From assembly GCF_009831215.1 (NCBI RefSeq), contig NZ_WUTW01000001.1, positions 744,001 through 808,000 on the forward strand: a stretch of 64,000 nt of DNA. Direction: 5' to 3'. This document shows positions 22,210 through 42,230 of the stretch, piece by piece. Source of the DNA: Actinomadura rayongensis. Its GTDB lineage: Bacteria > Actinomycetota > Actinomycetes > Streptosporangiales > Streptosporangiaceae. How positions within the stretch are numbered: the first letter of the stretch is position 1; each line of letters starts with the position of its first letter. The notes under the pieces are model-generated. The model did not search any database and was not told the origin of the DNA. It saw only the letters and a list, made by a program, of their open reading frames with translations. Position numbers and translations under genes: made by a program.

Positions 22210-22213
22210 CAGC

Positions 22214-22900: not shown

Positions 22901-22935
22901 CACCGCCGAACCGGTTTCGCTCGACGCGCCTGCGG

Positions 22936-22967
22936 GGCGGACGGCCGGTCGTTCGCGGCCGTCCGCC
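22936..22967. terminator. Bidirectional hairpin
   Basis: Perfect 11-base arms (22936-22946 and 22957-22967) with a 10-base loop, between the converging SLATT-like and fasciclin genes. Confidence 0.75.
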
Positions 22968-22975
22968 GAACCGGG

Positions 22976-23584: not shown

Positions 23585-23631
23585 GGAAGTTCTCCTTGGT
23601 CGAAGGGTGAGACGGGCGAGGAAGGGCGGGA

Positions 23632-25167: not shown

Positions 25168-25174
25168 ACCCGGT

Positions 25175-25201
25175 GTTCGGGACCCGCCGCCGAGGGGATG
25201 G
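25175..25201 (-). promoter_or_regulatory. SigK-type ECF promoter of the molybdoenzyme gene
   Basis: On the minus strand CCATCC (25201-25196), 15 bases, CCGAAC (25180-25175). This closely matches the mycobacterial SigK consensus (CCATCC and CCGAAT). The GTG start is only 8 bases past the -10 box. Confidence 0.75.
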
Positions 25202-25227
25202 GCGCCGATTTCGCTCGGGGACGCGAC

Positions 25228-25254
25228 CCATCCGCGCGCCCCGTCGCATCGAAC
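25228..25254 (+). promoter_or_regulatory. SigK-type ECF promoter of the sigma gene (autoregulation)
   Basis: CCATCC (25228-25233), 15 bases, TCGAAC (25249-25254), with the GTG start of the sigma gene 8 bases further. Same spacing as the divergent promoter, so the two form a mirror pair. Confidence 0.75.
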
Positions 25255-25261
25255 CAGGGGC

Positions 25262-26580: not shown

Positions 26581-26603
26581 GCGGACCCGCCGAGAACGCG
26601 CAC

Positions 26604-26627
26604 AGGCCCCACCGGCGGGTGGGGCCT
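26604..26627. terminator. Terminator after the sigma/anti-sigma operon
   Basis: AGGCCCCACC (26604-26613), GGCG loop, GGTGGGGCCT (26618-26627), a perfect 10-bp stem 24 bp after the stop codon. Confidence 0.85.
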
Positions 26628-26657
26628 GAAGGCTTCGCACATGAGTTTTCGCAAGGG

Positions 26658-26703
26658 GCGGTGCGCCGTCAGGGACTTGAACCCCGAACCCGCGGATTAA
26701 GAG
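26658..26703. repeat. Left attachment site (displaced tRNA-Lys 3' end)
   Basis: A 46-bp perfect copy of 42154-42199, covering the tRNA from its anticodon loop to just past the 3' end. The 5' half of a tRNA is absent, so it is a scar of integration, not a gene. Confidence 0.92.
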
Positions 26704-27131
26704 ACGCCTCCACCCGCCCCGAACGGTCCCGCACTGTGCCGAAACAGACCGTTCCGTCCATGTCGATACCATTCCGCGTGCCAAACGATGTTGACCCGTC
26801 CCGGTACGGGTCGGGGGCGCCGAGCGAACAACGAGCGAACCCGGCCGCCGCCAATCCCGGCACCATGCCACATAGGTTCACGTCAATAGGACGACCGCAA
26901 CCTATCGCATATGCCCGCAAGCATCCCTGATGGGCGATCCGTGCCGCCTGGCGGTGGGTAGGGACGACAGCACCGCCACACCGCGGGTGTAGTCGCGTCG
27001 GAGGGGTGTCAAGCCAGCCGACGCGTCAAACCTTCATCAGGGGATGCCCGATCCATGCCGCATGGTGTGGCTCCAGCGGTGTAGCGTCTGACCTAAAACT
27101 GGGAGAACGGCACCGAACGGGTGGATATCCT
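26704..27131. other. Left end of the element, non-coding
   Basis: No convincing gene. It holds the paired GAGCGAAC repeats (26822-26840) and presumably the promoter of the first cargo gene. Confidence 0.6.
26822..26840 (+). repeat. Paired GAGCGAAC repeats, left arm
   Basis: GAGCGAAC occurs twice, 11 bp apart (26822-26829 and 26833-26840), 118 bp inside the left attachment site. The same pair with the same spacing lies near the right end (42066-42084). These are candidate integrase or excisionase arm-binding sites. Confidence 0.6.
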
Positions 27132-28625
27132 ATGGGGCATGAGGATCGCAGCCAAGCGAATTTTCCGGGAGAGTCAACTTCTCGGAACGAACTCTCGGGA
27201 CTGGTCGCAGGGTCGGTGTTTCAAGTAGGAGTAATTCACGGAAACGTGAACATCCCTGGAATAGTCAGCTCCCCGGAGACGGATCCCAACCCGCAGGCGC
27301 TATCCGAAGACATGCGACGGTCGGCCCATGCCTGGCGGGTGAGGTTGGCTAACGTCGACTTGGTCAACTTTCCTCGGGCTGCGATGCTCGCCGGAACCCC
27401 GTTGATGCAGCTGGCGAAAAGAGCAGGGATCGATACAGCGAAGCCGTTCCACGGGCAAGGACTGGCACCTGGCTACTTTGTGGAAATGGCCAGACCTCTA
27501 TTCGAGACCTGGGACCAAGAGGCGGTAGTGATCGACGACCGCACCATAGGCCGGGTGAGCCGCGGTACGTTGGTGTCATTTGAAGCCTCCATGCAATGCG
27601 TCAACCCTCCGAAGGTACCTGCGGAGCCCCCCTCAGGTGACTTCGCCGACGGCCCCCACCTCGTCTGCCAGGTCGGCGACCATGGGCTGGTGGTCAGCTT
27701 CGACCCGCAGTGGCTCACCACGACGACTGCAGTAACGACGCTCCATGATGCCGCCCAGGACCCACAGGTCTTCGCTGGACTGGGGTACGTGGCCGCCGTG
27801 TGGGACGGCCGGATTCGAGTCTCGGCCCTTGTCTTCGGACAGCCGCAATCCGATGTTCAGGCTATGTTCGAATACGCGACGTCTGCGACGCTTCCGGTAC
27901 CGCACGAACTCAAGGTCGCTGACTTTCGTAACGAACTGTCCTCGGAAGGACAGATGCCGCTGTGCGTCGACGTTTCACAGAGGAAGGAAACTATGGAACG
28001 CCTGGGTGTTGTACTGTTCTTCGCCGAGGACCAGGTCATGCCTGGCGACATTGACTGGGAGGTGTTGCGTCAGGTAGTGCGGGTGGTTCCTGAGTATCGG
28101 CGCGATCTGGGCGTGGCTGTGGCGAGCTTCTACCCTCCGAGCGGCGTCGGAGCCCGTGACGTTGCCGCGCATCTTCTCGCACGAGAGCCTGCTCTATGGA
28201 AAACCTTTACGATACCTGGACTAGCAACGCTGATCGGTTCGCGTAACCTCGCCGTCGCTGTTGTCGCCGGTGTCACCCGAGATCAAGCCGCGGATATCGA
28301 CGAAGCGATGCGGAAAGAAGCAGCCGCTTACCTCGGATCAGTGGAACTCGACCGGACCATGCCTATGCAATGTCTCTTCCCCACAAAGGATCGCTACCAC
28401 CTGGTCGATGGTGAACTGCGCCTGCGCTACAGCGTCAGTGAAATGGTTGACGCAGAAGCCAATAGTGAGGATTTGGATGAACGTCTGGAGGAGTGGCGTG
28501 AGAGAGAATTGTTCCGCACTGTCGTCTGGGAAGAGAACGCGGAACAGTCTGCGGTTGACGAACACGAAGCGGCGATGATTATCGGGGCGTGGCTGCAAGA
28601 ACCGGGAGGTAGCGCTGCTACCTAG
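27132..28625 (+). CDS. Cargo protein with an N-terminal RHIM-like motif
   Basis: 497 residues from the ATG at 27132. Residues 19-41 read NELSGLVAGSVFQVG then VIHGNVNI: the core FQVG flanked by Gly/Val/Asn steps resembles bacterial amyloid signalling motifs of RHIM type, which in actinomycetes are found at the tips of NLR-like sensors and their effectors. The remaining 450 residues are not recognised and show no membrane helix or catalytic motif I can name. The gene is less GC-rich than the chromosome and lies just inside the left att site. An immunity or toxin role is inference. Confidence 0.6.
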   Translation: MGHEDRSQANFPGESTSRNELSGLVAGSVFQVGVIHGNVNIPGIVSSPETDPNPQALSEDMRRSAHAWRVRLANVDLVNFPRAAMLAGTPLMQLAKRAGIDTAKPFHGQGLAPGYFVEMARPLFETWDQEAVVIDDRTIGRVSRGTLVSFEASMQCVNPPKVPAEPPSGDFADGPHLVCQVGDHGLVVSFDPQWLTTTTAVTTLHDAAQDPQVFAGLGYVAAVWDGRIRVSALVFGQPQSDVQAMFEYATSATLPVPHELKVADFRNELSSEGQMPLCVDVSQRKETMERLGVVLFFAEDQVMPGDIDWEVLRQVVRVVPEYRRDLGVAVASFYPPSGVGARDVAAHLLAREPALWKTFTIPGLATLIGSRNLAVAVVAGVTRDQAADIDEAMRKEAAAYLGSVELDRTMPMQCLFPTKDRYHLVDGELRLRYSVSEMVDAEANSEDLDERLEEWRERELFRTVVWEENAEQSAVDEHEAAMIIGAWLQEPGGSAAT

Positions 28626-28930
28626 CGAGCGCATCCCGCCCGCCGGTGCTCCGATTGGTGGCCTTCGGATGGAGTTAAGGTCCGAAAACCTCGTCGCGTG
28701 TAGGCACTATCGATGAGGTCGACCGGTGTGCTGCTGCGCTCCCGCTTCGCACGTTTGGAGGATTGGTTCTGATTGCGTCCAATGGGAATTTATGACGGGA
28801 TGGCCAGCGCGGGGACGCGCGACAGCGGCACCAGGTAATCACCGACCAGGTCGGCGCCGGCTGCGCATCACCTTCGGCCCTATCGACCTGCGCGCCAGGA
28901 CCCGCATCCCGCTTGAAACTGTGCCGCTCT
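28626..28930. other. Degraded stretch without a recognised gene
   Basis: No start, ribosome site or domain supports a gene here. An open plus-strand frame continues to about 29139 with fair codon bias but no recognisable product. It may be debris joined to the truncated radical SAM gene. Confidence 0.5.
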
Positions 28931-29299
28931 TCATCGACCCCGGTGTTCACGGCCCTCTGACGGTGTACTGGCCAGCGGCGGGGCTCGACGCGCACGGCGC
29001 AACCACCGGCTCCGTTGAACTGGCCGTCGTCCCTCCAGCCTGGATTTCGGCGAATGGTTCGCTGGCCCTGGCGCCGACCCGAGCTGATCCCACAACGTCT
29101 TGCTGCAAAAGCTGCACTCGAAGTCGCAGCACTTGGTGACCTGAATGATCACCGACAGTGGAGCCGTCGTCTCGGCGGCGAGTTGACGGGGGTCCAGGTC
29201 CGCGCCCAGGGCGAAATGGTGACCGCGCATGAAGCGAATCGGGCCGGTCGGTTCGGGCGTCGGACGGTCGGGGATGGCGGGCATTCCGAGCATCGTCAT
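28931..29299 (-). pseudogene. Truncated radical SAM protein
   Basis: The start at 29299 overlaps the stop of the primase-polymerase-domain gene (ATGA). About 75 residues look genuine and include the iron-sulfur motif Cys58-x3-Cys62-x2-Cys65 (KCCDFECSFCSK). After about 29080 the reading becomes Arg/Pro-rich shadow sequence to a stop at 28931. Radical SAM enzymes need 250 or more residues, so the barrel is lost and the gene is dead. It is the second gene of an operon with the primase-like gene. Confidence 0.7.
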
Positions 29300-29964
29300 G
29301 GCAGTTCCTCTGACTGGTTGGAGCGGGATGGGTGGTCGGCGTGCTGCAGGCCCGGACGTGGAGACGATCGAGGCAGCGACCGTAGGACCGGTGCCAACTC
29401 GGCGAACTGGGGCAAGCGGAGAACGTTGGCGTCGGTCGGAGGTATCACCCATCTGGCCTGGCCGTCGAACGGAGTTCCGCCCGACGGAAGCGTGATCAGG
29501 TGGCCCGGACCGAGATAAGTGAGCCCGTCCGTTCGTGCCAGCTCGGTCCACGGGCTGCCCTGACGCGGGCGGACCAGCAAGCTGAGGGCGTCGCCGTCCG
29601 ACATCACCGGTGCGAGCCACGCTCCGCGGTCGGCGAGCACGTCCAGGACGGCGCGGCCGATCGGGGACGGCATGCTGATCACGTCGAACATGGCGCCGGT
29701 CGGGACGACGATGTTCGCGTCCGGCCGCGAACCCCACCACCGATGGACGCGGTCAGGGTCGACGGTCGGAGTCACCACCTCGTCGATCCCGGAAGATCCG
29801 CCGTCGCCAAGCGTCGCGGCGGTCCCCGCCATGACCGGCCAGTTCCACCGCGCGTACATGAGGGCGGCCTTCAACGGAGTGATGGTCGGTTCAGGGGTGG
29901 AGTCACGGTGGACGGATCGGTCGGCGTGGTGGGGAGGACACCGCCCGGGCAGCGAGGTCGTCAT
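29296..29964 (-). CDS. Bifunctional primase/polymerase (prim-pol) domain protein
   Basis: 222 residues. The pattern LKAALMYARWNWPVMAG, HRWWGSRPDANIVVPTG, FDVISMP and the closing ITLPSGGTPFDGQARWVIPP matches the N-terminal prim-pol domain family of actinomycete elements and phages. Only this single domain is present, with no helicase. The FDVISMP segment lacks a clear acidic pair, so catalysis is doubtful, and small paralogues often act next to XRE regulators. ATG at 29964 chosen over TTG at 29976. Divergent from the XRE gene. Confidence 0.75.
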   Translation of the reverse strand: MTTSLPGRCPPHHADRSVHRDSTPEPTITPLKAALMYARWNWPVMAGTAATLGDGGSSGIDEVVTPTVDPDRVHRWWGSRPDANIVVPTGAMFDVISMPSPIGRAVLDVLADRGAWLAPVMSDGDALSLLVRPRQGSPWTELARTDGLTYLGPGHLITLPSGGTPFDGQARWVIPPTDANVLRLPQFAELAPVLRSLPRSSPRPGLQHADHPSRSNQSEELP

Positions 29965-30002
29965 ATCCCATAGCAAAACCGCCAGCCGCTACGGCGGGCA
30001 GT

Positions 30003-30049
30003 GTGCAGAAGGGGTGCACTCCCTGACGGGTGGGTGCAGAAGGGGAGCA
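30003..30049 (+). repeat. Direct repeats in the prim-pol/XRE divergent promoter
   Basis: GTGCAGAAGGGGTGCA (30003-30018) and GTGCAGAAGGGGAGCA (30034-30049) differ by one base and are 31 bp apart, three helical turns. They are likely operator sites of the adjacent XRE-type regulator. Confidence 0.65.
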
Positions 30050-30151
30050 TTTTTCCGCTGTCAGGTCGCCGTACACCCTTCGTTCTATGTGGCCGACTGG
30101 TTACGCTCGGCACCACAGTCGAGGTGTGCCGGTGATGGGAACCGAACCGCG

Positions 30152-31531
30152 ATGACGATGAACCCGAATCACGACTTGGTCGCTGTGATCGAAGAGGCCG
30201 GGATATCGAACAAGGCGTTGGCCAAGGCGGTGCGTGACCTTGGCCGACTGCGCGGCCAGGACATCCGCTGCACCCATGTGGACGTCAACCGTTGGCGGAA
30301 CGGGATGATCCCGAGAGGTGCGAAGCCCGAATTGATCGCCCTGGCGCTCGGTCGTTGTCTGGGTCGTTCGCTCACGCTCGCAGATATCGGGATGGCCTCG
30401 CCGGGCGGTCCGCCGTTGACCTTGGGCCTTGATTTCGCCGCCGAAGCTCCGACCGTCCTGCGAACGACTCGTCGTCTGTGGAGTGAAGATCTGAATCGAG
30501 CGGAGTTCCTGAGACACGGCACAGTTACCGCAGCAATGCTCACGACGCCGATGGCGCGTTGGCTGATCGCTCCGCCGGCTGATCCACCGCATCGAACCGG
30601 CCGCACGATCACGGTGGGCCGCGGCGATGTCGAGGCGGTGCGGACCACTGTGCATATGTTCGAGAACCTCGACCACCAGTTCGGCGGCGGCCATGCCCGC
30701 ACTGCGGCGGCGCAATACCTGCACAGCCAAGTGACGCCGCTGCTTCACGGTAACTACACCGAGGCAGTCGGCCGGGACCTGTTCCGCGTCGCCGCTCAGT
30801 TCACCTACAAGACCGGCGCGATGGCCTACGACACCGGCAATCATGGGCTGGCCCGGCGGTACTTCGTCCAGGCGCTGAACCTCGCGCACACATCAGGGGA
30901 CCGGGCGCTGGGCGGCAAGGTCCTCGCGTTGATGAGTCATCAGGCGAACTTCCTGGGCGAGTTCACCGAGGCCGTGGACCTTGCCCGGGCGGCGAAGCTC
31001 GGCGGGGCCGGGCACGCTACGCCGACCGTCCAGGCCATGTACTGCGCGATGGAGGCCCGAGCGCTCGCCAGCCTCGGTGATGCCCGCGGCTGCCTGCGTG
31101 CTCTGAGCGAAGCCGAGGCCGCATTCGCGAAGCGATACCCCGGTGATGAACCCGACTGGATCGGCTATTTCGATGCGGCCGAGTTCCATGATGAATTCGG
31201 GCATTGCTTCCAAGCACTCGGCCACACCTCGCAAGCCGTCCGGCACGCGACTCTTTCACTCGCCGCGTCGGGTGACTCCTACCCTCGCAGCCGGACGTTC
31301 TGCCGCTTCACCCTCGCGACGTCCCACGTGAGCGCCTCACGCTCCCGAGACCGTGATGTGGATCAGGCGGTCGCCGTCGCAACCGAGGCACTCCCGTTGG
31401 TGGACCAACTCAAGTCGGTGCGGGTCCGCAGCTATATCCGAACGTTCAATCGGCATCTGGACACCTACGCTGACACCGCTGCGGTGTCCGCCTTCCGGGA
31501 ACGGCTCGCGGAGGTCCTGGTCGCGTCCTGA
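30152..31531 (+). CDS. XRE-type regulator with TPR-like C-terminus
   Basis: 459 residues. The N-terminal helix-turn-helix (about 5-70) reads LVAVIEEAGISNKALAKAVRDL and HVDVNRWRNGMIP. The long C-terminus has TPR-like helical repeats (GNHGLARRYFVQALNLAHTSGD, EARALASLGDARGCLRALSEAE). This architecture is common in Streptomyces-type regulators linked to differentiation and mobile elements. Its divergent partner is the prim-pol gene, and paired repeats lie between them. Probably the control switch of the element. Confidence 0.82.
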   Translation: MTMNPNHDLVAVIEEAGISNKALAKAVRDLGRLRGQDIRCTHVDVNRWRNGMIPRGAKPELIALALGRCLGRSLTLADIGMASPGGPPLTLGLDFAAEAPTVLRTTRRLWSEDLNRAEFLRHGTVTAAMLTTPMARWLIAPPADPPHRTGRTITVGRGDVEAVRTTVHMFENLDHQFGGGHARTAAAQYLHSQVTPLLHGNYTEAVGRDLFRVAAQFTYKTGAMAYDTGNHGLARRYFVQALNLAHTSGDRALGGKVLALMSHQANFLGEFTEAVDLARAAKLGGAGHATPTVQAMYCAMEARALASLGDARGCLRALSEAEAAFAKRYPGDEPDWIGYFDAAEFHDEFGHCFQALGHTSQAVRHATLSLAASGDSYPRSRTFCRFTLATSHVSASRSRDRDVDQAVAVATEALPLVDQLKSVRVRSYIRTFNRHLDTYADTAAVSAFRERLAEVLVAS

Positions 31532-31553
31532 ACGGGTCGTGTCAACGCGCGGC

Positions 31554-32465
31554 TCAGGTGCCGGGCGTCCAGTGCCGCGGAGCGGACGTGTCGCGCAAGG
31601 AGGCGATGCGCCGTCGTGCCTCACCGATCAGCCGGGGCTCCCGCCCGGTCCGAGCGGCCAGCCACGTCGTCATGCGCAGCTCCCGGATCGCGGCCAGCGT
31701 TGCGAATCCGTCCCAGGCCGTTACGTCGAATCCATAGGCACTGGAGAACGCCGTGTACGTGGCGTCGTCGTACCAGCCGACTCGTAGATAGACCGCCGGG
31801 ACCGTCAAATCCCACTCGCGCGGCCCAAGGCTGAACCTTTCCAGATCCAACAAGATAGGGCGGTCTTTATCGTCGACAAGAATATTCTTGCGATGCGGGT
31901 CGCCGTGAATCACGCCTGCTGGAAGTGTGAACTTCACTTCGTCGTAGGCTTCTTTCAGTTGAGTCAGCAAGCTCATCAGAAAGTCTCGATCATCGGCGTC
32001 GATCCCCGTGGCTTCTGCTATATGGGCGCGTTGCCGGACGAAAGGCTCCATAGGGCCGACCAGCCCGGAGGGTGGATCGGGCAGAGCGTGAAGCCGACGC
32101 AGCAGCGTTCCCATTTCTGCTGTCGATGCCTGGCGCGGGTTCTGAATCTCCTCCCAGAAGGTGACCAGCCGGTTCTGTTCGGCTACTGGCTGAGTCACAG
32201 CATCCACCGGACGGACAGCCGGGAAGTCCTGCTCTGCTAGCCACCGGGCCACGGCCAGCTCTCGCGCGACCCTAGGCATGGCGCGCATGGAGGAGGCGAC
32301 CCGTACAACGATCCGCTCCGCCGGAATCCGGAAGACGGCGTTGTCGGCAACCGGTCCCATCAACGTCGCCCCGGCTGGATCCATCCCGGCCGCGCGGCAC
32401 ACGGCGACCGCCACCGCCTGCGCCGACTCGGCCGTGAACGGCGCCGGCGAGTTCTCCAGCGTCAC
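31554..32465 (-). CDS. Aminoglycoside phosphotransferase-like kinase
   Basis: About 303 residues from the GTG at 32465 (another GTG at 32480). It has the APH/choline-kinase fold markers: catalytic loop VIHGDPHRKNILVDD and the metal motif LLDLERFSLGPREWDL. Family members phosphorylate antibiotics, sugars or alcohols; nothing here fixes the substrate, so resistance should not be assumed. It converges on the XRE gene 22 bp away. Cargo of the element. Confidence 0.82.
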   Translation of the reverse strand: MTLENSPAPFTAESAQAVAVAVCRAAGMDPAGATLMGPVADNAVFRIPAERIVVRVASSMRAMPRVARELAVARWLAEQDFPAVRPVDAVTQPVAEQNRLVTFWEEIQNPRQASTAEMGTLLRRLHALPDPPSGLVGPMEPFVRQRAHIAEATGIDADDRDFLMSLLTQLKEAYDEVKFTLPAGVIHGDPHRKNILVDDKDRPILLDLERFSLGPREWDLTVPAVYLRVGWYDDATYTAFSSAYGFDVTAWDGFATLAAIRELRMTTWLAARTGREPRLIGEARRRIASLRDTSAPRHWTPGT

Positions 32466-32861
32466 GAACCAACCCCCCACCTGACGAACCCGCCAACTTC
32501 CCTCGGAGACCTGTTGTCTCCCCGAACACCAGTGTTCCAGTCGCTGCGCTCCGTTGTCGGCCCTTGCGGTTGGCTGCTCGACTTCTGGCGGCGATTCACA
32601 GCTCAGTTGCCTCAACACGCGCTCTCTTCGGACCCGCCTAACGGCCAATGCACCCGTTGTGAACACTGCCGCAATCGCCGGGCGGCGGCTTGGCTAGGGG
32701 CACGGCGACCTTCCGTCCGCCCCCGTACGGTTCGCGAACTTTGAACCAGTTCGGCGATCTGGCAGGGCTGGAGAGGGCGGGCAGCCGGGCGGGTGCTCCT
32801 CGGTACGGAGCGTTCGGCGCAGATTTTCAACGCAAGCGTTTTCCTGGAGGTCGAGTGTCAA
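32466..32861. other. Intergenic region without a recognised gene
   Basis: About 400 bp between divergent genes. Frames here lack supporting starts or domains. The ribosome site of the next gene (GGAGG at 32846-32850) is at its right end. Confidence 0.5.
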
Positions 32862-33170
32862 ATGATGGCACCTCTCGTCGAGCCCGGCGCGTCCGAAATT
32901 GATGGTTTGAATGCTTTGCGGTCGGTGATCGTGGAGCGGTACCGCAGCTTGAGATGTCGTCTGGTCGAGCCGGGTGGATCTCCCGGGGCGTTCCTGCGGG
33001 TGGTGAATCCGGTGTGCGGCCAGTTGGCGGAGGACGTGCGGTGCCGTCCGGCCGAGCCCGGTGACACGAAGCTCGTCTTCGTGTGGTCGTGGGGCGATGT
33101 GATCAGCCCGGCTGACGATCCGGTCGAGGCGGCGTCCGCAGTGGCACGCGTCCTGTCCCCGGAGGTGTGA
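32862..33170 (+). CDS. Small hypothetical protein
   Basis: 102 residues from the ATG at 32862, with GGAGG 11 bases upstream; a GTG at 32793 would be longer. No motif recognised. The reading (LRSVIVERYRSLRCRLVEPG, TKLVFVWSWGDVI) looks like a soluble alpha/beta protein. The next gene starts 4 bp after its stop, so they are probably co-transcribed. Confidence 0.55.
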   Translation: MMAPLVEPGASEIDGLNALRSVIVERYRSLRCRLVEPGGSPGAFLRVVNPVCGQLAEDVRCRPAEPGDTKLVFVWSWGDVISPADDPVEAASAVARVLSPEV

Positions 33171-33174
33171 TCCG

Positions 33175-33795
33175 ATGTCGGGTCCCGAAGACGTGGCGCG
33201 ATGGGCAGAGGCGAATGCTCCCGGCTGGGTGGTGCTGTGGAGCCCGTACCACCGGACGTTCACCGCATGGGCGGCGCATCTGTCTGACGCGGTTTGGGTC
33301 GAGGCGCCGACCGTTGAAGAACTGACGGTCGAGATCCGGCAGGCCGAACGGCGGAACGAGGCGATGGCCGGCCCCTTCGTCCGTCCGCAGTTCTCGCGGG
33401 ACGCGTCCAGGAGTCGGGACGGAACTTGGGATGCGAAACCGCCGCCTCCTGAACGCACTGGCCTAGGGGGTGCGGCTAGCACTCGGCTCGGGCGCGGCCC
33501 CGAAGCGACCGTGTCGGCTGGTTGCTCCACGATCGAGCTGATTCCGGTGGTGGATTCGCCGCAGGCGGCGGACCTGGACAGGGCGTTCTGGGCCGCCTTG
33601 TACTTGGCCGGAGCCGATGGCGAGCGCGGGTTTAGGCCCGATCGCCGACCCGTCCGGGGCGCACGCACCTGCCCGAGTGATCTCGGGCGTTTCCCGGGGC
33701 GGGAGTTCGCACGCGGCGACCAACGGCTCGCCGGACGACGCTCACAAGCTCACATATACGGGCGGCTTGGCCAGCCACCCGATCGCGGCGGCTGA
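33175..33795 (+). CDS. Hypothetical protein, C-terminus doubtful
   Basis: Starts with ATG and GGAGG nine bases upstream. The first 70 residues (DVARWAEANAPGWVVLWSPY, VEELTVEIRQAERR) look like real protein, resembling short hypothetical proteins of actinomycetes. The following 135 residues are Arg/Pro/Gly-rich and may be read-through of a damaged 3' end, since such proteins are often about 70-80 residues long. Function unknown. Confidence 0.45.
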   Translation: MSGPEDVARWAEANAPGWVVLWSPYHRTFTAWAAHLSDAVWVEAPTVEELTVEIRQAERRNEAMAGPFVRPQFSRDASRSRDGTWDAKPPPPERTGLGGAASTRLGRGPEATVSAGCSTIELIPVVDSPQAADLDRAFWAALYLAGADGERGFRPDRRPVRGARTCPSDLGRFPGREFARGDQRLAGRRSQAHIYGRLGQPPDRGG

Positions 33796-33896
33796 ACCAA
33801 CTCGTTCAGTAGCTGGTCCGTCCTCCTTCGCGCCGCCCCGCGATCGGCCCGGAGGCCCGTCCCATCAATCCACACCGAGAAACCGGAACGACGACC

Positions 33897-34226
33897 ATGA
33901 CCAAGAAGCAGCCCGAAGAGCCGCAGCAGCCGACCCTGTACACGCCGGCGGAAGTCGCGATGTTCTTTCGCGTCGATCCCAAGACCGTCACCCGCTGGGC
34001 CAGGACCGGGACGCTGCACCCGATCACGCTGCCGTCCGGGCACCGCCGGTACCACGCCGAGGAGATCCACAAGCTCCTCCAGGCCGGCGACGCCCACGCC
34101 GACGTGCCCGACCCGGAGCCCGAGCCGAGCCCGCGCGCCCGCGCCGTCCTGCACAGCGTCGTCCGGACTTACTTCAACGGCGATGCCATCGCCGCCATCA
34201 AGACCCTCCGCACCGACCTCAAGTAA
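33897..34226 (+). CDS. BldC-like MerR-type DNA-binding protein
   Basis: 109 residues with one winged helix-turn-helix (about 14-62): LYTPAEVAMFFRVDPKTVTR, then GHRRYHAEEIHKLL. This is the BldC class of MerR-related proteins, which bind repeated sites as head-to-tail oligomers and control development in Streptomyces. The C-terminal extension is acidic then helical. In mobile elements such proteins often control excision or transfer; here the role is inference. A strong terminator follows. Confidence 0.8.
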   Translation: MTKKQPEEPQQPTLYTPAEVAMFFRVDPKTVTRWARTGTLHPITLPSGHRRYHAEEIHKLLQAGDAHADVPDPEPEPSPRARAVLHSVVRTYFNGDAIAAIKTLRTDLK

Positions 34227-34284
34227 CCGCCCCGGCGATCAGCCGGACGGACGGGTGTGAGGACTTTCCCTGATACGCCAAGGC

Positions 34285-34316
34285 GGGGACGCGCGCCTTG
34301 CGGCGCGCGTCCCCGT
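34285..34316 (+). terminator. Hairpin after the BldC-like gene
   Basis: Perfect 14-base arms (34285-34298 and 34303-34316) with a 4-base loop, 58 bp after the stop. Confidence 0.8.
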
Positions 34317-34812
34317 TCGCCGTTTCCCAGCCGGGCCACCCTGTCGAGTCCATCCGGGAACGGATCGGCCCCGGACATGCGAAACGGCGGCACGGAACCG
34401 GCACCAGCCGTCACGGCGAATCCGCCGCCCGGCACGCCGATCCCTGCCGCCGTCCGCGGAGTACTGGGCCACGATCTCAAGACGCCGGTCTCATCATTCG
34501 AGCCGATGCCGAGAACGGCCCGTGAGCCCGCCTGTTTTCGGTCGAAGCCCCGCACTGGGCGGTGCTGGAGCGCATATGCCGGTTCTTCATAACGACATCA
34601 AGTCGAGTTTTGTATTCAATCATGCAGGCGATCACCATTCTACGGGGCGGCTGCCTGTGATCCTGTGGCGAGCGTCGGTGGCATGGCGAATTCCCGCTGT
34701 GGCTTGACATTGCATTTCGAGTTGTTCATAGATGGGTCCAGGTCCGCCCGTACCCATTAACCCCGCGTTATGCGGGGTGGCGGGCTGGTGCCTGGAAAGG
34801 GACGACGCAACG
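34317..34812. other. Non-coding region before the ATPase gene
   Basis: About 500 bp with no supported gene. An AT-richer patch (about 34595-34640) and a small hairpin CCCCGC-GTTAT-GCGGGG (about 34763-34779) precede the ATPase gene, perhaps as promoter and leader structure. Confidence 0.45.
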
Positions 34813-35274
34813 ATGTGGGGATGTAGTTTTCTGTCGCCGTTCGCGGTGGCTGACGGCGCAACGGGTGGGGCGTTGGCGTGGAGCCGGACGTTCCCAGGCC
34901 GGTTGGATCAGGCGAAGGCGGCGCGCAGGTTCGCGGCCGTGCTGTTCGCGGATTCGCCGGTGGTGGACGAGGTCGAGCTGGTGGCCGGGGAACTGGCGGC
35001 CAACGCAATCCGTCACTCGACCTCGGGTGAGGAAGGAGGTGTTTTCACGCTGCATCTGATGGTGCGCGACGGTCTGGCCCTGGTCGGGGTTCGGGACTTG
35101 GGCGGCCGGGGTATTCCGGCGGTGCGCAACGACCCGCTCAACACCCGGCTCAGCCGTGGTCGTGGCCTGCTGGCGGTGTCTCGCCTCGCCGGCACCCTTG
35201 GGGTTTACGGCAACCCGTTGGTCGGTCATCTAGTGTGGGCGGAGCTGGACGGCGCTCCGCCGATGATCCCGTGA
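34813..35274 (+). CDS. RsbW-like ATP-binding (HATPase) protein
   Basis: 153 residues from the ATG at 34813, with GGAAAGGG upstream. The GHKL ATPase fold shows the N-box VELVAGELAANAIRHS, then VGVRDLGGRGIP and the LSRGRGLLAVSRLAG lid. Such proteins act as anti-sigma or regulatory kinases in actinomycetes. No partner sigma factor or anti-anti-sigma is in the element. Two strong hairpins follow. Confidence 0.8.
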   Translation: MWGCSFLSPFAVADGATGGALAWSRTFPGRLDQAKAARRFAAVLFADSPVVDEVELVAGELAANAIRHSTSGEEGGVFTLHLMVRDGLALVGVRDLGGRGIPAVRNDPLNTRLSRGRGLLAVSRLAGTLGVYGNPLVGHLVWAELDGAPPMIP

Positions 35275-35307
35275 CCGGTCTCTCCATCGATGAGGGCGGT
35301 GTGAGGC

Positions 35308-35340
35308 GGGGACCAGCCCGACCATAACGGGCTGGTCCCC
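35308..35340 (+). terminator. Hairpin after the ATPase gene
   Basis: Perfect 13-base arms (35308-35320 and 35328-35340) around a 7-base loop, 34 bp after the stop codon. Confidence 0.8.
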
Positions 35341-35367
35341 GAGGGCCACGATACGGGCACCCGAGCG

Positions 35368-35403
35368 GCCTCGCCCGCGCCTTCTCCAAGGCGCGGGCGA
35401 GGC
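35368..35403 (+). terminator. Second strong hairpin with T-rich tail
   Basis: Perfect 16-base arms (35368-35383 and 35388-35403), 4-base loop CTCC, then TTCTTG. A backup terminator or the edge of the structured region. Confidence 0.8.
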
Positions 35404-35422
35404 TTCTTGCTGCGCGCCAACC

Positions 35423-35466
35423 GGGGTTCCTGCCGGGGGTCCCATCGGGGTTCCAATCGGGGCTCC
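35423..35466 (+). repeat. Four 12-bp iterons
   Basis: GGGGTTCC, GGGGGTCC, GGGGTTCC and GGGGCTCC begin at 35423, 35435, 35447 and 35459, a strict 12-bp period with 4-base spacers. Candidate binding array for an initiator or regulator; the phase close to one helical turn favours protein binding on one face. Confidence 0.6.
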
Positions 35467-35543
35467 GTCTATGAGTGGTCCCCCTGCGTGGATGTCTTCG
35501 CACATGTGGGACGGGGTGTGAGGGGTTCCGGTGGTACGCCCGG

Positions 35544-35564
35544 ATACCCCAGTAAAAGGGGTAT
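35544..35564. repeat. Inverted repeat ATACCCC / GGGGTAT
   Basis: 7-base arms around a 7-base AT-rich centre AGTAAAA, 80 bp after the iterons. Operator or small hairpin. Confidence 0.5.
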
Positions 35565-35921
35565 GCAGGAGGGGGCGGCGGTGGAGGCCCGGAGGTTTGG
35601 ACTGTTGGCATGGCCAGTTACGCAGTCCCTCCATCCTTGTTCCGACGTTCTCAAAGCATGGGCTGCGAGGAGGCTGTGTCCGAAGACGCGGCGGCTCGTC
35701 TTCGGCGATGCGCCGGGACCAGGCGGCGACACGGCCGCTTGCGCCTTGCCGAGATGGGCGCGGGCGGGTCGCGTGCCTGTCGGTGCGGCGAAGCCGGAAC
35801 CGCGCCCGACGGTGAGCGCGGGTTGCGGCGCGGCCTGCGATCACGACACGGTCGACTGCGGTTCTTGGCGTTGGGTGATCGCGGGAGGTTCAGGGGTGCG
35901 TTGAGGGAGCTTTTCAGAGAT

Positions 35922-35935
35922 GCGTTTATAAACGC
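35922..35935. repeat. Perfect palindrome GCGTTTATAAACGC
   Basis: A 14-bp perfect palindrome with an AT-only centre in otherwise GC-rich DNA. Could be an operator, a nick site or an unwinding element. Confidence 0.55.
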
Positions 35936-35970
35936 CCCCTGCGCGCGGGTCTTCGGTGCAGGTGGGGCGA

Positions 35971-36004
35971 GGGCATCCGGGGGTGGTGCCGCCCCCGGAT
36001 GCCC
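35971..36004. terminator. GC-rich hairpin
   Basis: Perfect 13-base arms GGGCATCCGGGGG and CCCCCGGATGCCC with an 8-base loop. No gene ends next to it, so it may not be a normal terminator. Confidence 0.5.
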
Positions 36005-36395
36005 CTGATATGGGGCATGGACACGGGTGGGTCCGGGCGGACGGCATGTCACGGTGGGCCGTGAGCCTTGGTTTCTCTCTCGGTGTGGTTGGTCTGCGGT
36101 CGGATGAACGCGTGTGCTGCTCGCTCTTTGAAGGCCGCGGTGAGGGCCGCGCGCGCTTCGTTCGTCGGTGTGTTCCCCGCTTCTCATTTTCCCGCCGATG
36201 ATGCGGTGGGCGTCGCACCGCACGGCTGTTGGTGGATTCGGTTTTAGTGAGGTAAGCCTCTCCATTCGTTTCCGTCAGTGAATTCGTCGGCGCTCCGTGT
36301 TGTGTCGGGTCGCGGATCGAGAAATGGTCGTCATGGCGGATGGCGCCGAGCGGGAAAGTCCCGCACCGGTCCGCCCTTTTGGAAGGACGAGAACA

Positions 36396-37439
36396 ATGGC
36401 GGACATCATCACGGCGAACACGGTCACCGATGCGGCTGATGTGGACGCGGCGGCGACCGCCCAGGCGGGTGAGGGTGCGCGTCCGGCAGGGGCGGCGGGT
36501 GCGGTGTGGGATGCGCTGAAGGCCGCGCCGGGCGGTGCGACGGTGACCGGGCTGGCGTCGGTGGCGGGGGTGAGTCGCGCGTCGGTGTCCAAGGCGCTGA
36601 ACGGGTTCGCCGACGCCGGGCGCGCGGTCCGGACCCCCGGCACCGGGACCGCCCCGGCCCTGTGGGCACCGGCTGCACCGACCATCGACGACCCGACTGA
36701 CGACCCGACTGACGACCCGACCGACGAGGCGGCGGGGACGGCCGGTGACGCTGGCAGCGCCGTCATCGACGGCTTTGACGGCACGGTGGGCAACGGCGCG
36801 GCGGGTGGGGTGTCGTCGGAGGCGTTGGCGGCGGCGGTGCGGTTGCTGTCGGATGAGGGGGGTCGGCGGGCGGCGGCGGCCGAGGCGCTGGCGCGCGCGC
36901 AGGCTGAGGAGGTTGCGCGGCGGGCGCGGGTGGACGCTGAGCTGGATAGGGCGCGGCGGCGGGAGGCGGCGCGGGCGATGCTGGCCGATCTCCTGGTTGT
37001 GGTGACGACCACGCTGTCGGCGGTCGCCGCCGACGACCAGGACGCGATGAGCGGCGGGTTGGAGAAGATCGCCGAGTATGCGGGGGTGGTGCGGCGCGCG
37101 TCCCGCACGGCCTCGACCGGCACCGCCCGCATCGGCCCGGCGGCTGGTGGGATGGATGCGGGTGATCGGGCCGCGCCGTCGCCGTTGAGGCCGTTGGTGG
37201 AGGCGCACCTGCGCGCCTATGCGGGCAAGGACTTCACCCCGGGTGAGGTCGCGCGGGTGTTGGGGCGTTCGCCGGGCGCGGTCGCCAATGCCCTGGACAC
37301 CCTGACCGGTCACGGCGTCACCATCCTGACGTGCGACAAGCCCCGCCGCTACCGCGCCGCCAACCCCACCCCCGACATCAACGCCACCGACATGGCGGAC
37401 GTCGCCACGACAACGACCGGCGTCACCGGCACCGCCTGA
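36396..37439 (+). CDS. Protein with two putative winged-helix domains and a coiled-coil centre
   Basis: 347 residues from the ATG at 36396 with GGAAGGA upstream. An N-terminal winged-helix-like segment (VWDALKAAPGGATVTGLASV, then SRASVSKALNGFADAGRAVR) and a C-terminal one (FTPGEVARVLGRSPGAVANA, LTGHGVTILTC) flank an Ala/Arg-rich region predicted to be a long helix (about 165-240). Between them DDPT is repeated three times, encoded by a 12-bp DNA repeat. It may bind the structured DNA just upstream as an initiator or partition-like protein; this is inference. Confidence 0.6.
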   Translation: MADIITANTVTDAADVDAAATAQAGEGARPAGAAGAVWDALKAAPGGATVTGLASVAGVSRASVSKALNGFADAGRAVRTPGTGTAPALWAPAAPTIDDPTDDPTDDPTDEAAGTAGDAGSAVIDGFDGTVGNGAAGGVSSEALAAAVRLLSDEGGRRAAAAEALARAQAEEVARRARVDAELDRARRREAARAMLADLLVVVTTTLSAVAADDQDAMSGGLEKIAEYAGVVRRASRTASTGTARIGPAAGGMDAGDRAAPSPLRPLVEAHLRAYAGKDFTPGEVARVLGRSPGAVANALDTLTGHGVTILTCDKPRRYRAANPTPDINATDMADVATTTTGVTGTA

Positions 37440-38050
37440 CAGCGCGGCGGGGCGGACCCGCAGCAGGCCCAACCACCAGCACCACCATTACGCGGCCCCG
37501 GGTCGGCGGAAGCGCCATCCGGGGCCGTCCCGTGTCCGTGGGGCTGTGCAGGCGGGTGTCCAGGAATTTGGGGTGTCGGTCTCTTACTGAATGAGGGCCT
37601 CTGAGCCGGGACCGCCGTTTGGAAGGTGGGATTCGTGGCGCGCGGTGTCCCATGCGGCGGGTGAGGTCGTCGGTTCAGGGACGAACAGGTTCTGCGGTGT
37701 CGTGCCGAGTGGAAGGGAGGAGCGTCCGTGATCTGGGCGATGGCCTGGTCGAGGTCGGTGCATGTCCTGTCGGACTCGCCGCGCCCGGCGCCCGGCCTGC
37801 TTGAGGCTGGTGCCGGAGGCGCGGGTCGATATGGCGGCCCCGCCCCGGGCGGCCCGGTAACGGGCCGTGCGGGGGTGCGGGGCATCATCCAACCGCCGAT
37901 CGGACCCCATGCCACCCAGTACCCGCACAGTCCCTGTCGGGCCGCTGAACGGCCCTGCGGCCGTCATCCGCACCGCATCGTCAATCGCCGCCCGGACCGC
38001 TGTCCGGGGTGCGGGTTGGCGGGCGCTGTGGTGCGTGCCGGGGGTGGTGT
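37440..38050. other. Non-coding region before xis/int
   Basis: About 600 bp without a supported gene. A short hairpin CGGCCCG-GTAA-CGGGCCG lies at 37850-37867. It probably holds the promoter for the excisionase/integrase genes. Confidence 0.5.
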
Positions 38051-38320
38051 GTGGCTCGGGGTTTGACGTTGGCGGAGGTTCGTTCGCTGCCTGTGTGCGT
38101 CGATCTGGTGACGGCGGGGCGGGTGCTGGGTGTCGGCCGGACCACGGCGTACCAGCTGGCTCGCACCGGACGGTTTCCGTGCCAGGTGCTACGGGTCGGG
38201 GGCGGGTACCGGGTCGCGACCGCCGACCTGCTCACGCTCCTCGGCCTCGCCCCTGTCGGGACGGAACCCTGCCAGCCGACACCACACGGGCAGCCCTCAC
38301 CTTCGCGGGGGGACACCTGA
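38051..38320 (+). CDS. Excisionase-like helix-turn-helix protein
   Basis: 89 residues from the GTG at 38051 with GGGGGTGG upstream. A MerR-type winged helix fills most of it: DLVTAGRVLGVGRTTAYQLA, then TGRFPCQVLRVGGGYRVATA. Small proteins of this kind directly before an integrase gene act as Xis in actinomycete integrative elements. The integrase ATG follows its stop by 1 base. Confidence 0.78.
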   Translation: MARGLTLAEVRSLPVCVDLVTAGRVLGVGRTTAYQLARTGRFPCQVLRVGGGYRVATADLLTLLGLAPVGTEPCQPTPHGQPSPSRGDT

Positions 38321-38321
38321 C

Positions 38322-39893
38322 ATGACCGCTACGGGAAGCACGTTCAAAGCGTGCGGATGCCGCGATGAGGACGGGAAGCTGCTGCGCAAACGGTGTCCGA
38401 AGTTGCGGCGCCGCGACGGCCGCTGGAGCCACACCCACGGGACCTGGAATTACCAGCTCGAACTCCCGCCCCACGCCGACCGGACGCGCAGGGGGCCGCT
38501 GCGGCGCGGCGGGTTCGGAAGCCAGGACGCGGCCGAGTCGGAGATGAACGACGTCAAAGAACTCCTGGCCATCGCCGACGACGACGCGGCCAGGGTCGAG
38601 ATCGCCGACCTGATCGTCGCCACCGTCCGCGCCACCAAGAAACCTCCGGTGCCCGAAGAGGTGCGGCGCAAGGTCCGCACCGGCCAAGATCTGTCCCAGG
38701 CGCTGACCATCGGGGGGTACCTGGAGCAGTGGCTTGCCGGACGCAAGAACCTGCGGGCGGCCACCGTGCGCAGCTACGCTGGCCACATCCGCCTCTACCT
38801 CACCCCGAACCTCGGATCGATTCCGCTGGACCGGCTGCGAGTGACCGATGTCGACCGGGTGTTCGAGGAGATCGACGACCTCAACGACATCATCCGTGAA
38901 GCCCGCGCCTCCGCCGATCCCGCGCTCCGGGCGCTGGTGAAGGGCCGCCGGGTCGTCGGCCCGGCCACCAAGCAGCGGATCCGCGCGACCTTGCGGGCGG
39001 CGTTGAACAAGGCGATCAAGGAACGGCGGATCGATCTCAACGTCGCCGCCCTGGTCGAGTTGCCGTCGGGAAAGGCACCCAAAGCGCTGGTGTGGACCGA
39101 CGAGCGCATCACCCAATGGCACACCGACCACGCCGACCACGTCCACAACGCCGACCAGGCCCGCAAGCGCCTGGCCGAACTCGACCCCACCGGGAAACAC
39201 GGGCGCCTGACCAGGCTGGACGCCTACATTGGAACGCCGCGCCCGTCGAAGGTAATGGTGTGGACACCCGCACTGACCCGACGGTTCCTCGACCGGGCAC
39301 GCGGCCACCGCCTCTACGCCCTGTACCACCTCATCGCCTTCCGCGGGCTTCGGCGCGGAGAAGCGTGCGGCCTGCGGTGGAGCGACTTGGACCTGGAGAA
39401 CCAGACGGTGACGATCCGGTGGCAGATCACCCAGCTCGGCTCCGCCACCCAGGAGGGCAAACCCAAGTCCGACGCCGGCGAAGCCACCATCAGCCTCGAC
39501 ACCGCCACCGTCGCTGAACTGCGGGCACACCGGCGACGGCAGAACACCGAACGCCTGGCCGCTGGAACCGCCTGGACCGGCACCGGACACGTCTTCACCA
39601 CCAGCATCGGGCAGCCAGTCCACCCAGCCCAGGTCACCGAACAATTCGAGCTGCTGTCCATGGAAGCCGGACTCCCGCCCGTCCGCCTGCACGACCTACG
39701 TCACGGCGCGGCCAGCTTCCTCCTCGCCGCCGGATACGACATGAAAGTCGTCCAAGAGACCCTGCGGCTGTCCTCGATCACCATCGCCGCCGACACCTAC
39801 ACCAGCCTCCTACCCCAACTCGCCCGCCAATCCGCCGAAGACGCCGCCAACGTCATCCTCAACGCACCATCCACATCCGATTGCCGCGCCTAG
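38322..39893 (+). CDS. int: Tyrosine recombinase / integrase
   Basis: 523 residues, long for the family. An N-terminal AP2-like arm-binding region (FKACGCRDEDGKLLRKRCPK), a SAM-like core-binding domain (about 125-240, SQALTIGGYLEQWLAGRKNL) and a catalytic domain with Arg344 (RGLRRGEACGLRW), His457-x2-Arg460 (LHDLRHGAASFLL) and Tyr493 (AADTYTSLLP). The usual second His before the Tyr is replaced (LRLSSITIA), a variation seen in this group. It would integrate the element into tRNA-Lys. Confidence 0.93.
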   Translation: MTATGSTFKACGCRDEDGKLLRKRCPKLRRRDGRWSHTHGTWNYQLELPPHADRTRRGPLRRGGFGSQDAAESEMNDVKELLAIADDDAARVEIADLIVATVRATKKPPVPEEVRRKVRTGQDLSQALTIGGYLEQWLAGRKNLRAATVRSYAGHIRLYLTPNLGSIPLDRLRVTDVDRVFEEIDDLNDIIREARASADPALRALVKGRRVVGPATKQRIRATLRAALNKAIKERRIDLNVAALVELPSGKAPKALVWTDERITQWHTDHADHVHNADQARKRLAELDPTGKHGRLTRLDAYIGTPRPSKVMVWTPALTRRFLDRARGHRLYALYHLIAFRGLRRGEACGLRWSDLDLENQTVTIRWQITQLGSATQEGKPKSDAGEATISLDTATVAELRAHRRRQNTERLAAGTAWTGTGHVFTTSIGQPVHPAQVTEQFELLSMEAGLPPVRLHDLRHGAASFLLAAGYDMKVVQETLRLSSITIAADTYTSLLPQLARQSAEDAANVILNAPSTSDCRA

Positions 39894-39900
39894 GGGATAT

Positions 39901-40884
39901 TTAAGCAGGGTGCTGGGTGGTCCAACGTTTCTCGACGGTTTCGTTAGGTGGCAGAGTGTTGTATTCGATGGCGTATTCAGGGCTGGGGTGATGCTCGCCC
40001 TCCCATGGGGCTGGCAAACGGGGACCGGTAGGTTTCCAATGACGCCATGGATCGTGCAGCGGGTGATGTGCGATCAAAGCGTCGGCTGCATCGTAGACGA
40101 TCTGGACCAGCGCCAACCCCATTGCACCCTGAAAGACCATGCGATGATCAATGCGTTTGTTGGGATCTTCCATTTGCAAATAGCTGCCGGGTAGCAAAAG
40201 TAGCCGGTGAGGGTCTAGGGATAGGGCTATGTCGCAGTAAGAAGCTGCCGCGAGCTGGTTGTCGGCGTCGTGGTCGTTGAAGAGAACAACTGGGACGTCG
40301 CTGGTCAGCAGGCACGCAGCACTGAAAGCCAAGCCCCACGGTCGTGTGTAGAGGATGGAAGCTAGACCAATCAAGTTTTCGATGATGAAGTCTAGGTGGG
40401 GGTTATTTGCCGCGAGCGCGGCGACGCCAACAGGTACTTCTACGGCGTTGGCAGCCTGCCCCAGGCGGGCGAGTCGCTTCCGCTGGCGGGTGGTACGCAG
40501 AATCTGTGCCGCCATCCACCATGCCAAAGCCTTCCGGTGGGCGGGATCGAGAGGCCAGGACACGGGGAATGCGTAGTCTGGATCATCCAGAATGGCTTGG
40601 AAAGCGGTGGCCGCGTCTCCTTCGATCTGGGAAAAGAGGTCTTCGACCGAATGGTGCGGCACGTTCTCCAAGGTTGTCCCCCAGTAGAACCCGCATTCGA
40701 CGAAGACCTTGTTTGGTCGGGTGGGGATGACTTTGTCGATATTGCTAATTCGACGTACTTGAAGTCCGTATTTGTTAGGGTCTGTATTTTCGGCGAAGCG
40801 GCGGAGATACATTTGAGGTACTGTGTGGTCGCGGGTCTTACCCGGCTTATCTCCGTCCGGCTCTCTCGGCGCTGTCCTGCTCAA
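39901..40884 (-). CDS. DUF4238-domain protein
   Basis: 327 residues, TTG start with GAGGTGG upstream. The N-terminus RDHTVPQMYLRRFAENTD is the DUF4238 hallmark (His-x-Val-Pro-x2-Tyr-Leu). The rest is alpha-helical with SDVPVVLFNDHDADN near the C-terminal third, also typical. Biochemical function is unknown; members are frequent in defence-rich accessory regions. It sits tail-to-tail with the integrase gene (7-bp gap), is less GC-rich than the chromosome, and is cargo at the right end. Confidence 0.85.
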   Translation of the reverse strand: MSRTAPREPDGDKPGKTRDHTVPQMYLRRFAENTDPNKYGLQVRRISNIDKVIPTRPNKVFVECGFYWGTTLENVPHHSVEDLFSQIEGDAATAFQAILDDPDYAFPVSWPLDPAHRKALAWWMAAQILRTTRQRKRLARLGQAANAVEVPVGVAALAANNPHLDFIIENLIGLASILYTRPWGLAFSAACLLTSDVPVVLFNDHDADNQLAAASYCDIALSLDPHRLLLLPGSYLQMEDPNKRIDHRMVFQGAMGLALVQIVYDAADALIAHHPLHDPWRHWKPTGPRLPAPWEGEHHPSPEYAIEYNTLPPNETVEKRWTTQHPA

Positions 40885-41115
40885 TGACCACCTCTTTCGT
40901 TCGCCACGTCACCTTGCCCTTATCCGGATCAAAAATTTTTATAGCTGGCACACTGATTAGTTTGGTTGGCTGACTGCTTCTGGATCGTAGCGTTCTGTGT
41001 CCACAAGCTTGCGGGAGTCCGGGGCCAGGCGAGCTGCCGATGATGCGATCGTCAGCCACAGGAAGCGATGATAGATCAGTCGGCGAACTTGGGCCACGGG
41101 TCCTAGGCTGTTGGT

Positions 41116-41886
41116 GTGGATATCCGCAGTGAGGCACTGAATCTGTTGGGCACGCCGGGCGTGGACCCCCGCTTCGCAGACCCATACTTGCCGTCAACCA
41201 TCCGTACCAGGACCGGGTGTAGGCCGCATCAGGTATGGGAGGCTCTGTGGGGCTTGGTGGCGGAAGGGTTGGCCTATCTCGATCCGTCCCAGCAGCCCAG
41301 TACCGACAACTGGCGATGGAAGCTCACCGAAGCCGGGATGCAAGCCATTGAGGGCGGGTCGTGGGAACCGCGCGACACCGAAGGGTACCTGCGGCGTTTG
41401 AAGCACCGCATCCCAGATCTGGACCCGGCGGCGGTGCGTTATGTAAAGGAGGCATTGAGGGCGTTCAATGCGCGCTGTTACCTGGCTAGCTCGGTCATGC
41501 TGGGGGTTGCCTCCGAGCGCGTGTTCACTGGCTTGGCCAACAGTGTGGTAGCTGCCCTGGGCTCGTCGGCTGACAAGCTCAAGACCGCGCTGGACAATCC
41601 CAAGCACTCTCAGCACACCCGGTTCCTGGAGTTGCGCAAGCGCCTGGAACCGATGCGCGCCCAACTCCCCGACGACCTCGGCGACAGCCTCACTTTGGAC
41701 GCGGTGGGCGACCTGTTGCGCGTGACCCGCAACGATGCTGGTCACCCGACTGGCCGCGAAGTGGACGAAGACACCGCTTACACCCACCTACAGATGGCTG
41801 CTCGCTACTTGGAAAAGATGACCGCGCTCCAGCATTACTTCGACGGCATCGCCGCCGCAGCACAGGTGCCCCCGCGCTCGAACTGA
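41116..41886 (+). CDS. HEPN-like cargo protein with RX4H motif
   Basis: 256 residues, GTG start. The N-terminal 85 residues resemble a winged helix (CRPHQVWEALWGLVAEGLAY, WRWKLTEAGMQAIEG). The C-terminal part is helical with ALRAFNARCYLASSVMLGVA and VTRNDAGHPTG, where Arg205-x4-His210 fits the catalytic motif of HEPN ribonucleases, then TAYTHLQMAARYLEKM. HEPN proteins are common in toxin-antitoxin and abortive infection systems. No clear antitoxin is next to it. Cargo beside the right att site. Confidence 0.65.
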   Translation: MDIRSEALNLLGTPGVDPRFADPYLPSTIRTRTGCRPHQVWEALWGLVAEGLAYLDPSQQPSTDNWRWKLTEAGMQAIEGGSWEPRDTEGYLRRLKHRIPDLDPAAVRYVKEALRAFNARCYLASSVMLGVASERVFTGLANSVVAALGSSADKLKTALDNPKHSQHTRFLELRKRLEPMRAQLPDDLGDSLTLDAVGDLLRVTRNDAGHPTGREVDEDTAYTHLQMAARYLEKMTALQHYFDGIAAAAQVPPRSN

Positions 41887-42065
41887 CCACATAGTGCTCA
41901 GGCTGGTAGCAGCGGATACGCAACATGGCTGTGAGCCTTAGGGCGTGCGAGGCCCCATGACGAACGGTGCCAGAACGGGGCGGACAACACGCGCGGGTGG
42001 GTCGGATGCGGGTGGGTTGGATAAGGACACATGCAAGACATGGCCCTACCCGGCCAGGGGGCGGC

Positions 42066-42084
42066 GAGCGAACATGGAGCGAAC
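42066..42084 (+). repeat. Paired GAGCGAAC repeats, right arm
   Basis: GAGCGAAC at 42066-42073 and 42077-42084, 11 bp apart, same strand and spacing as the left pair, 69 bp inside the right att site. Confidence 0.6.
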
Positions 42085-42153
42085 GTGGGGGGCAAACCGG
42101 TGCAGATGCGACGACGGGCAAGCGCGGCTATGCTGCGTTTGCCCAGGTCAGAT

Positions 42154-42199
42154 GCGGTGCGCCGTCAGGGACTTGAACCCCGAACCCGCGGATTAAGAG
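42154..42199. repeat. Right attachment site
   Basis: The 46-bp repeat identical to 26658-26703. It covers the tRNA-Lys 3' half from the first base of the anticodon loop to 4 bases beyond the discriminator. Confidence 0.92.
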
Positions 42200-42230
42200 T
42201 CCGCTGCTCTGCCAATTGAGCTAACGGCGC
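42158..42230 (-). tRNA. tRNA-Lys (anticodon CTT)
   Basis: 73 nt on the minus strand. Acceptor stem GCGCCGT pairs with ACGGCGC, discriminator A. The D arm (TAGCTCAATTGGCAGAGCA), anticodon stem GCGGA/TCCGC with loop CTCTTAA, and TPsiC arm GGGGTTCAAGTCCC are regular. CCA is not encoded. The element enters at its 3' half and restores it. Confidence 0.97.

Follow-up and report, generated by a model that had tools for sequence, protein, structure and literature searches.

What occupies the 3′ half of the tRNA-Lys gene in this part of the Actinomadura rayongensis genome, and to what kind of mobile DNA does it belong? We analysed one stretch of 64,000 nt (hereafter, the window), in which an initial annotation made from the sequence had proposed a 15.5-kb integrated element at 26658-42199. 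We put at roughly 0.7 the probability of the following reading. A 15.5-kb element lies in the 3′ half of tRNA-Lys(CTT), where it was likely inserted as a circle by its own tyrosine integrase in the anticodon-loop region. It is likely a cousin, minus the transfer genes, of the integrative and conjugative elements (ICEs) with type IV secretion systems (T4SS) of the same genus.

Exact ends in a tRNA-Lys gene

The two direct repeats, at 26658-26703 (left attachment core) and 42154-42199 (right attachment core), are identical over 46 bp and cannot be extended on either side, so that the annotated ends are exact to the base. No third copy occurs in the window at up to 14 mismatches. Running ARAGORN, we detected a sole tRNA in the window, a complete tRNA-Lys(CTT) on the minus strand at 42156-42230, and this is the target gene. 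The right repeat covers its 3′ half and two further bases. Read on the tRNA strand, it opens with the anticodon loop, CTCTTAA, precisely as the annotation had placed it. The 3′ part of the tRNA thus stands as a direct repeat at both ends, as is characteristic of tRNA-targeting tyrosine integrases. The G+C content is 0.659 in the interior, and 0.723 and 0.718 in the flanks.

The annotated tyrosine integrase and Xis-like gene are both present between the repeats. The integrase (int, 38322-39893, plus strand) is an open frame of 523 aa with a PF00589 match (1.7e-16) and the R, HxxR and Y catalytic boxes. The predicted excisionase (xis, 38009-38320, plus strand) matches PF12728 (4.5e-7), and its homologue stands directly before int in relatives; its score against TIGR01764 'excise' (18.6 bits) is below the cut-off of 28.8.

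We searched the whole genome (6.87 Mb, 15 contigs) with the left end, and found the repeat at three places, namely both ends and contig C8. A repeat occurring without the element had been named as a finding that would speak against integration. The C8 copy, the only one of that sort in this genome, lies within a second complete tRNA-Lys(CTT) gene and leaves the integrated element intact as an explanation. A hairpin (-20.6 kcal/mol) is found just 3′ of the target tRNA at the right end of the element (42105-42155), and a similar one (-22.7 kcal/mol) follows the C8 tRNA-Lys. With the hairpin at 42105-42155, the element may supply a replacement terminator for the tRNA.

Among 59 relatives, G011 gave the best match to the tRNA region. 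Its alignment with the right flank spans 14,780 columns at 93.9% identity, starts at 56914 and breaks off at 42156, the 3′ end of the tRNA. Past this point, G011 has a remnant of ~2.2 kb, in which the C-terminal part of an integrase and a second, eroded tRNA half remain. Then comes ~840 bp of its own sequence, after which the match resumes at 22207. G011 is thus without the window element and once carried a different one. Proposed as a check was an empty site joining 26657 to 42200; the exact clean join was not found, and in G011 the different remnant stands there instead.

We also searched the interior in six genomes (G003, G011, G018, G020, G065 and G081), and it is not conserved core genome, the other finding that would have told against integration. 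G020 and G081 gave no match. All 13 matches in G011, and the single one in G065, lie at the BldC-like gene, so that the interior is absent from G011 save for BldC-like paralogues. G003 showed three short matches, one of them BldC-like, and G018 a stretch of 71% over xis and the start of int. Taken together, the exact repeats and tRNA, the open xis and int, and the end of the G011 similarity at the tRNA 3′ end uphold the integrated element with the annotated ends.

Two observations concern the surroundings of the site. The left flank, 22208-26657, carries fasciclin and RskA matches (Pfam) with a sigma-factor-like gene between them; parts of it have ~70-73% copies elsewhere in G011 and in the genome of the window (G000:C1:824962-827583), and it is perhaps an older insertion at the same site. 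In G003 (contig C18, L036), the tRNA-Lys and its upstream flank are inverted relative to the conserved right flank, a local inversion.

An integrase family with a common end design

Integrase matches at E <= 1e-40 are present in 35 of 60 Actinomadura genomes, the own genome included, and a scan of Actinomadura records gave 13 integrase loci with 68-86% identity. All 22 aligned family members have the R, HxxR and Y boxes in common. The position before the tyrosine is usually H/W in tyrosine integrases; here it is L in 22 of 22 aligned rows, and it is therefore a family trait and not decay.

A search for right ends covered 28 loci, some sharing a genome, of which 27 had an integrase match. Counting the window, 18 right ends are known: 11 in tRNA-Lys(TTT), five in tRNA-Arg(TCT) and two in tRNA-Lys(CTT). 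The anticodon arm is common to these three target tRNAs (GACTCTTAATC, GACTTTTAATC and GACTTCTAATC). The integrase tree has 22 rows, 17 of them with a known target; the targets need three changes on it, where two is the minimum possible. Separately, contigs G022:C16, G023:C50 and G033:C1 (L044, L045, L050 and L053) each bear a pair of complete tRNA-Lys(CTT) genes at a spacing of 13-21 kb, perhaps reflecting elements that carry or duplicate a whole tRNA.

Near each core of the window element stands a paired motif, GAGCGAAC-N3-GAGCGAAC, at 26822-26840 on the left and 42066-42084 on the right, both on the plus strand. The strict pair starts only at these two positions in the window, one per end and in the same orientation, and it never appeared in 300 first-order Markov sequences of the interior. 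The single 8-mer GAGCGAAC, with five occurrences observed, is not rare alone (simulated mean 0.8, up to 5).

The looser form, GAGC-N7-GAGC, lies 95-114 bp before the T-loop of the whole or half tRNA on the right side of int at 16 of the 27 integrase loci, to which the right end of L104, with motif and core, was added by eye. Among the other ten, L108 has a left-type core only, and nine have none in the sequence examined. At L058, L108 and L111 a left end was found, in which the motif follows the T-loop by 147-159 bp, and left arms also occur in G026 (two), G029 and G034. Reading by eye a comparison set of 19 tRNA 3′ regions, we saw the strict motif in seven (the window, three chosen integrase relatives, G018, G015 and G029) and a one-mismatch version in G010; it was absent from the other 11, including G011 and the second tRNA-Lys of the own genome. 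The GAGC-N7-GAGC pairs at both ends are probably integrase arm sites.

The insertion would then proceed in a lambda-like manner, with the integrase binding the core at the anticodon stem and the arms at the GAGC pairs, and with crossover within the 7-nt anticodon loop that separates the two halves of the stem. The 3′-half copy brought by the element would keep the tRNA functional, while Xis would drive the reverse reaction, freeing a circle of ~15,496 bp.

One contig of G026 (G026:C1:5609587-5709613; L104, L126-L130) holds a tandem array of ~100 kb with five tRNA-Lys(CTT) cores, at 5609587, 5619139, 5666764, 5687379 and 5709570, two of which lack the GAGC pair and belong to other kinds. Such tandem accretion of elements is already known from a study of actinobacterial ICEs (PMC9513070).

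Backbone without a secretion block, and a variable cargo pocket

Comparing assembled contig stretches from eight relatives, we found in five of them (G006, G015, G009, G010 and G018) a MarR gene, then a type IV secretion block, then xis and int. The block comprises coupling-protein-like, VirB4/TraG, PrgI and pilin genes, a gene for a 490-aa protein and two methyltransferase-like genes; its domains include PF19044, PF12666, PF18895 and a TrwB-like one. In four of these five stretches, an HATPase gene lies ~2 kb before MarR. G034 combines both cores with HATPase, MarR, xis and int and, like the window, has no secretion block. The G026 stretch consists of decayed pieces, and that of G029 is too short to place the backbone.

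In the window, the corresponding genes are the HATPase_c_2 gene (34732-35274, plus strand; PF13581, 1.4e-10), with 45-49% homologues upstream of MarR in relatives, and the gene of a MarR-type DNA-binding protein (36297-37439, plus strand; PF12802, 1.6e-8). Thirteen family integrases have a MarR homologue upstream in the same orientation; the distance from MarR to int, compared by eye, is 2.5-5.2 kb in six and 18-22 kb in seven, and in the window it is 0.9 kb. The window gave no match to the T4SS proteins of L055, and a search of the own genome for VirB4 found nothing. The window element and its larger relatives have in common the order HATPase, MarR, xis, int, cargo pocket, motif, core; together with the integrase clade and the paired arm motif, this order ties the element to the Actinomadura T4SS ICE family. 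Since the integrase family, the end motifs and part of the gene order are in common, the element is likely a cut-down cousin of larger conjugative elements. The window has no secretion block, and the element is therefore likely a non-conjugative derivative; with its transfer genes missing, its spread would depend on a helper.

A prophage remnant, too, could have Int, Xis and a tRNA site. However, Pfam scans of the window open reading frames (ORFs) showed no phage structural family (PHROGs were not searched), and the gene order is shared with T4SS elements, which makes this origin the most improbable of those considered.

A defective actinomycete integrative and conjugative element (AICE), with its TraB and Rep genes lost, would likewise account for the tRNA 3′-end target and for Int with Xis. 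It would also account for the Prim-Pol domain protein (226-aa frame, 29296-29976, minus strand; PF09250, 4.6e-11), as Prim-Pol serves as the replication gene in some AICEs. The protein has the N-terminal domain only, however, and the integrase relatives carry T4SS genes, not the TraB-type set, in five of the eight stretches. Apart from that lone Prim-Pol domain, the window ORFs scanned with Pfam gave no match to a Rep family, nor to a TraB/FtsK-type translocase (FtsK_SpoIIIE). We do not class the element as an AICE because the TraB/FtsK family is missing from these ORFs, and descent from one appears very unlikely.

An independent integrative and mobilizable element, one that was never an ICE, could share the ICE integrase module and ride via an unrecognised origin of transfer (oriT). 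Members without a secretion block do recur: in G034 both ends were seen, and the distance from MarR to int is short in G033, G017 (two), G009:C39 and G006. No relaxase or coupling-protein family, on the other hand, was found in the window ORFs scanned with Pfam (oriT was not searched for), nor was there a VirB4-type match in the own genome. On balance this explanation is unlikely, albeit the strongest of the three.

Several points weigh against the favoured reading. No clean empty site was found, and the history of the site is not simple, because G011 lacks the flank 22208-26657 here as well. In G018, 14 kb separate the HATPase gene from MarR. The nearest MarR homologues (53-59%) include those of four genomes without a family integrase at 1e-40 (G028, G066, G070 and G077), so the MarR gene is not specific to the family, and the integrase-linked copies are only 40-46% identical or shorter. 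Matches in relatives to the NsdA-, APH- and HATPase-like genes are 25-49%, weak members of large families. On the tree, the secretion state (15 of 22 rows) needs at least three changes, whose direction the tree does not give, and loss of the secretion block is not established as an event.

The cargo between int and the attachment site differs among family elements. Of nine occupied pockets scanned with PADLOC, four contain a known defence system, namely Argonaute, ShosTA, Lamassu or type I restriction, so that different known systems occupy one fixed place in sister elements, as in a defence hotspot. The window pocket contains a DUF4238 gene (39901-40884, minus strand; PF14022, 1.9e-24), found in one of 60 Actinomadura genomes, and a gene for a winged-helix and HEPN-like protein with an RNxxGH motif (41116-41886, plus strand). 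This pair beside int is predicted to be an anti-phage defence payload. On the left side, where PADLOC was applied to the window only and in part, there were HTH-type mad1 matches (best 1.2e-8) and a weak match to PDC-M05A. In G034, ABC-3C-type genes lie to the left of int.

As a tentative extension, the space between int and the attachment site in Actinomadura elements of this integrase family might be a dedicated cassette port, at which each copy exchanges a different anti-phage system with the arm motif and core unchanged. The window element would then be an ICE satellite minus the secretion block, movable by its conjugative siblings or in tandem with them, and would carry a new defence module of DUF4238 and a winged-helix/HEPN RNase. 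If the pocket is a real defence port, it offers a simple place to seek new actinomycete defence systems, first of all the DUF4238/HEPN-like pair.

The remaining genes lie left of the backbone. A 497-aa protein of unassigned function and uncertain start (27132-28625, plus strand) is an open frame without a PADLOC or NCBIfam match. An NsdA-family TPR regulator (30152-31531, plus strand; NF053720, 1.7e-134) is followed by an APH-type phosphotransferase family protein (31554-32666, minus strand; PF01636, 4.6e-23) that is under all NCBIfam cut-offs. The BldC-like DNA-binding protein (33897-34226, plus strand) scores 72.3 bits against NF033787 (2e-20; cut-off 77), and the G011 matches to its gene, at 74-85% DNA identity, mark a many-copy family in these chromosomes. 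A minus-strand frame at 28931-29740 has no Pfam match and contains a CCDFECSFC stretch, which we take to be reminiscent of a radical SAM N-terminus, perhaps in a broken gene.

Relation to known systems

The element is of an ordinary kind within an informative family, and its anatomy and kind are those given by the initial annotation. New here is the view across the family, namely its common attP design, its three target tRNAs, a secretion block present or absent, and a variable pocket between int and the attachment site with recurring defence genes. One element is delimited exactly and tied to a genus-wide integrase family, and the attP design of a core and two paired arm sites is testable.

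AICEs (PMC3218068) are reported to use tRNA 3′ ends with Int and Xis, to have related integrases on different tRNAs, and to form tandem elements in tRNA-Lys. All of these traits are common to both, but unlike AICEs, the window ORFs scanned gave no TraB/FtsK or Rep. The T4SS ICE in the tRNA-Thr of Streptomyces (PMC9513070) likewise entered a tRNA gene by tyrosine-type integration and has direct repeats, and relatives of the window element carry VirB4/TraG, PrgI and pilin genes. The window element differs from the Streptomyces ICE in its missing secretion block, its genus and its tRNA, a comparison that leaves out the integrase sequences.

Like the elements of this family, the P2/P4 hotspots (PMC9122126) carry varied cassettes beside the integrase and many defence systems. 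Here, however, the pocket lies between int and the attachment site, in elements of conjugative type. A single DUF4238 protein from the P2 hotspot gave strong resistance to T7 (PMC9122126); its likeness to the window protein is by family label. A parallel in end design comes from mycobacteriophages that use tRNA-Lys(TTT) as attB-4, with anticodon-loop cores and paired putative arm sites beside the attP core (PMC10865867). As in the window element, the core is in the 3′ half of the tRNA with the anticodon loop at its edge; those are phages with a 43-bp core bearing five differences, whereas the window element has an identical 46-bp repeat.

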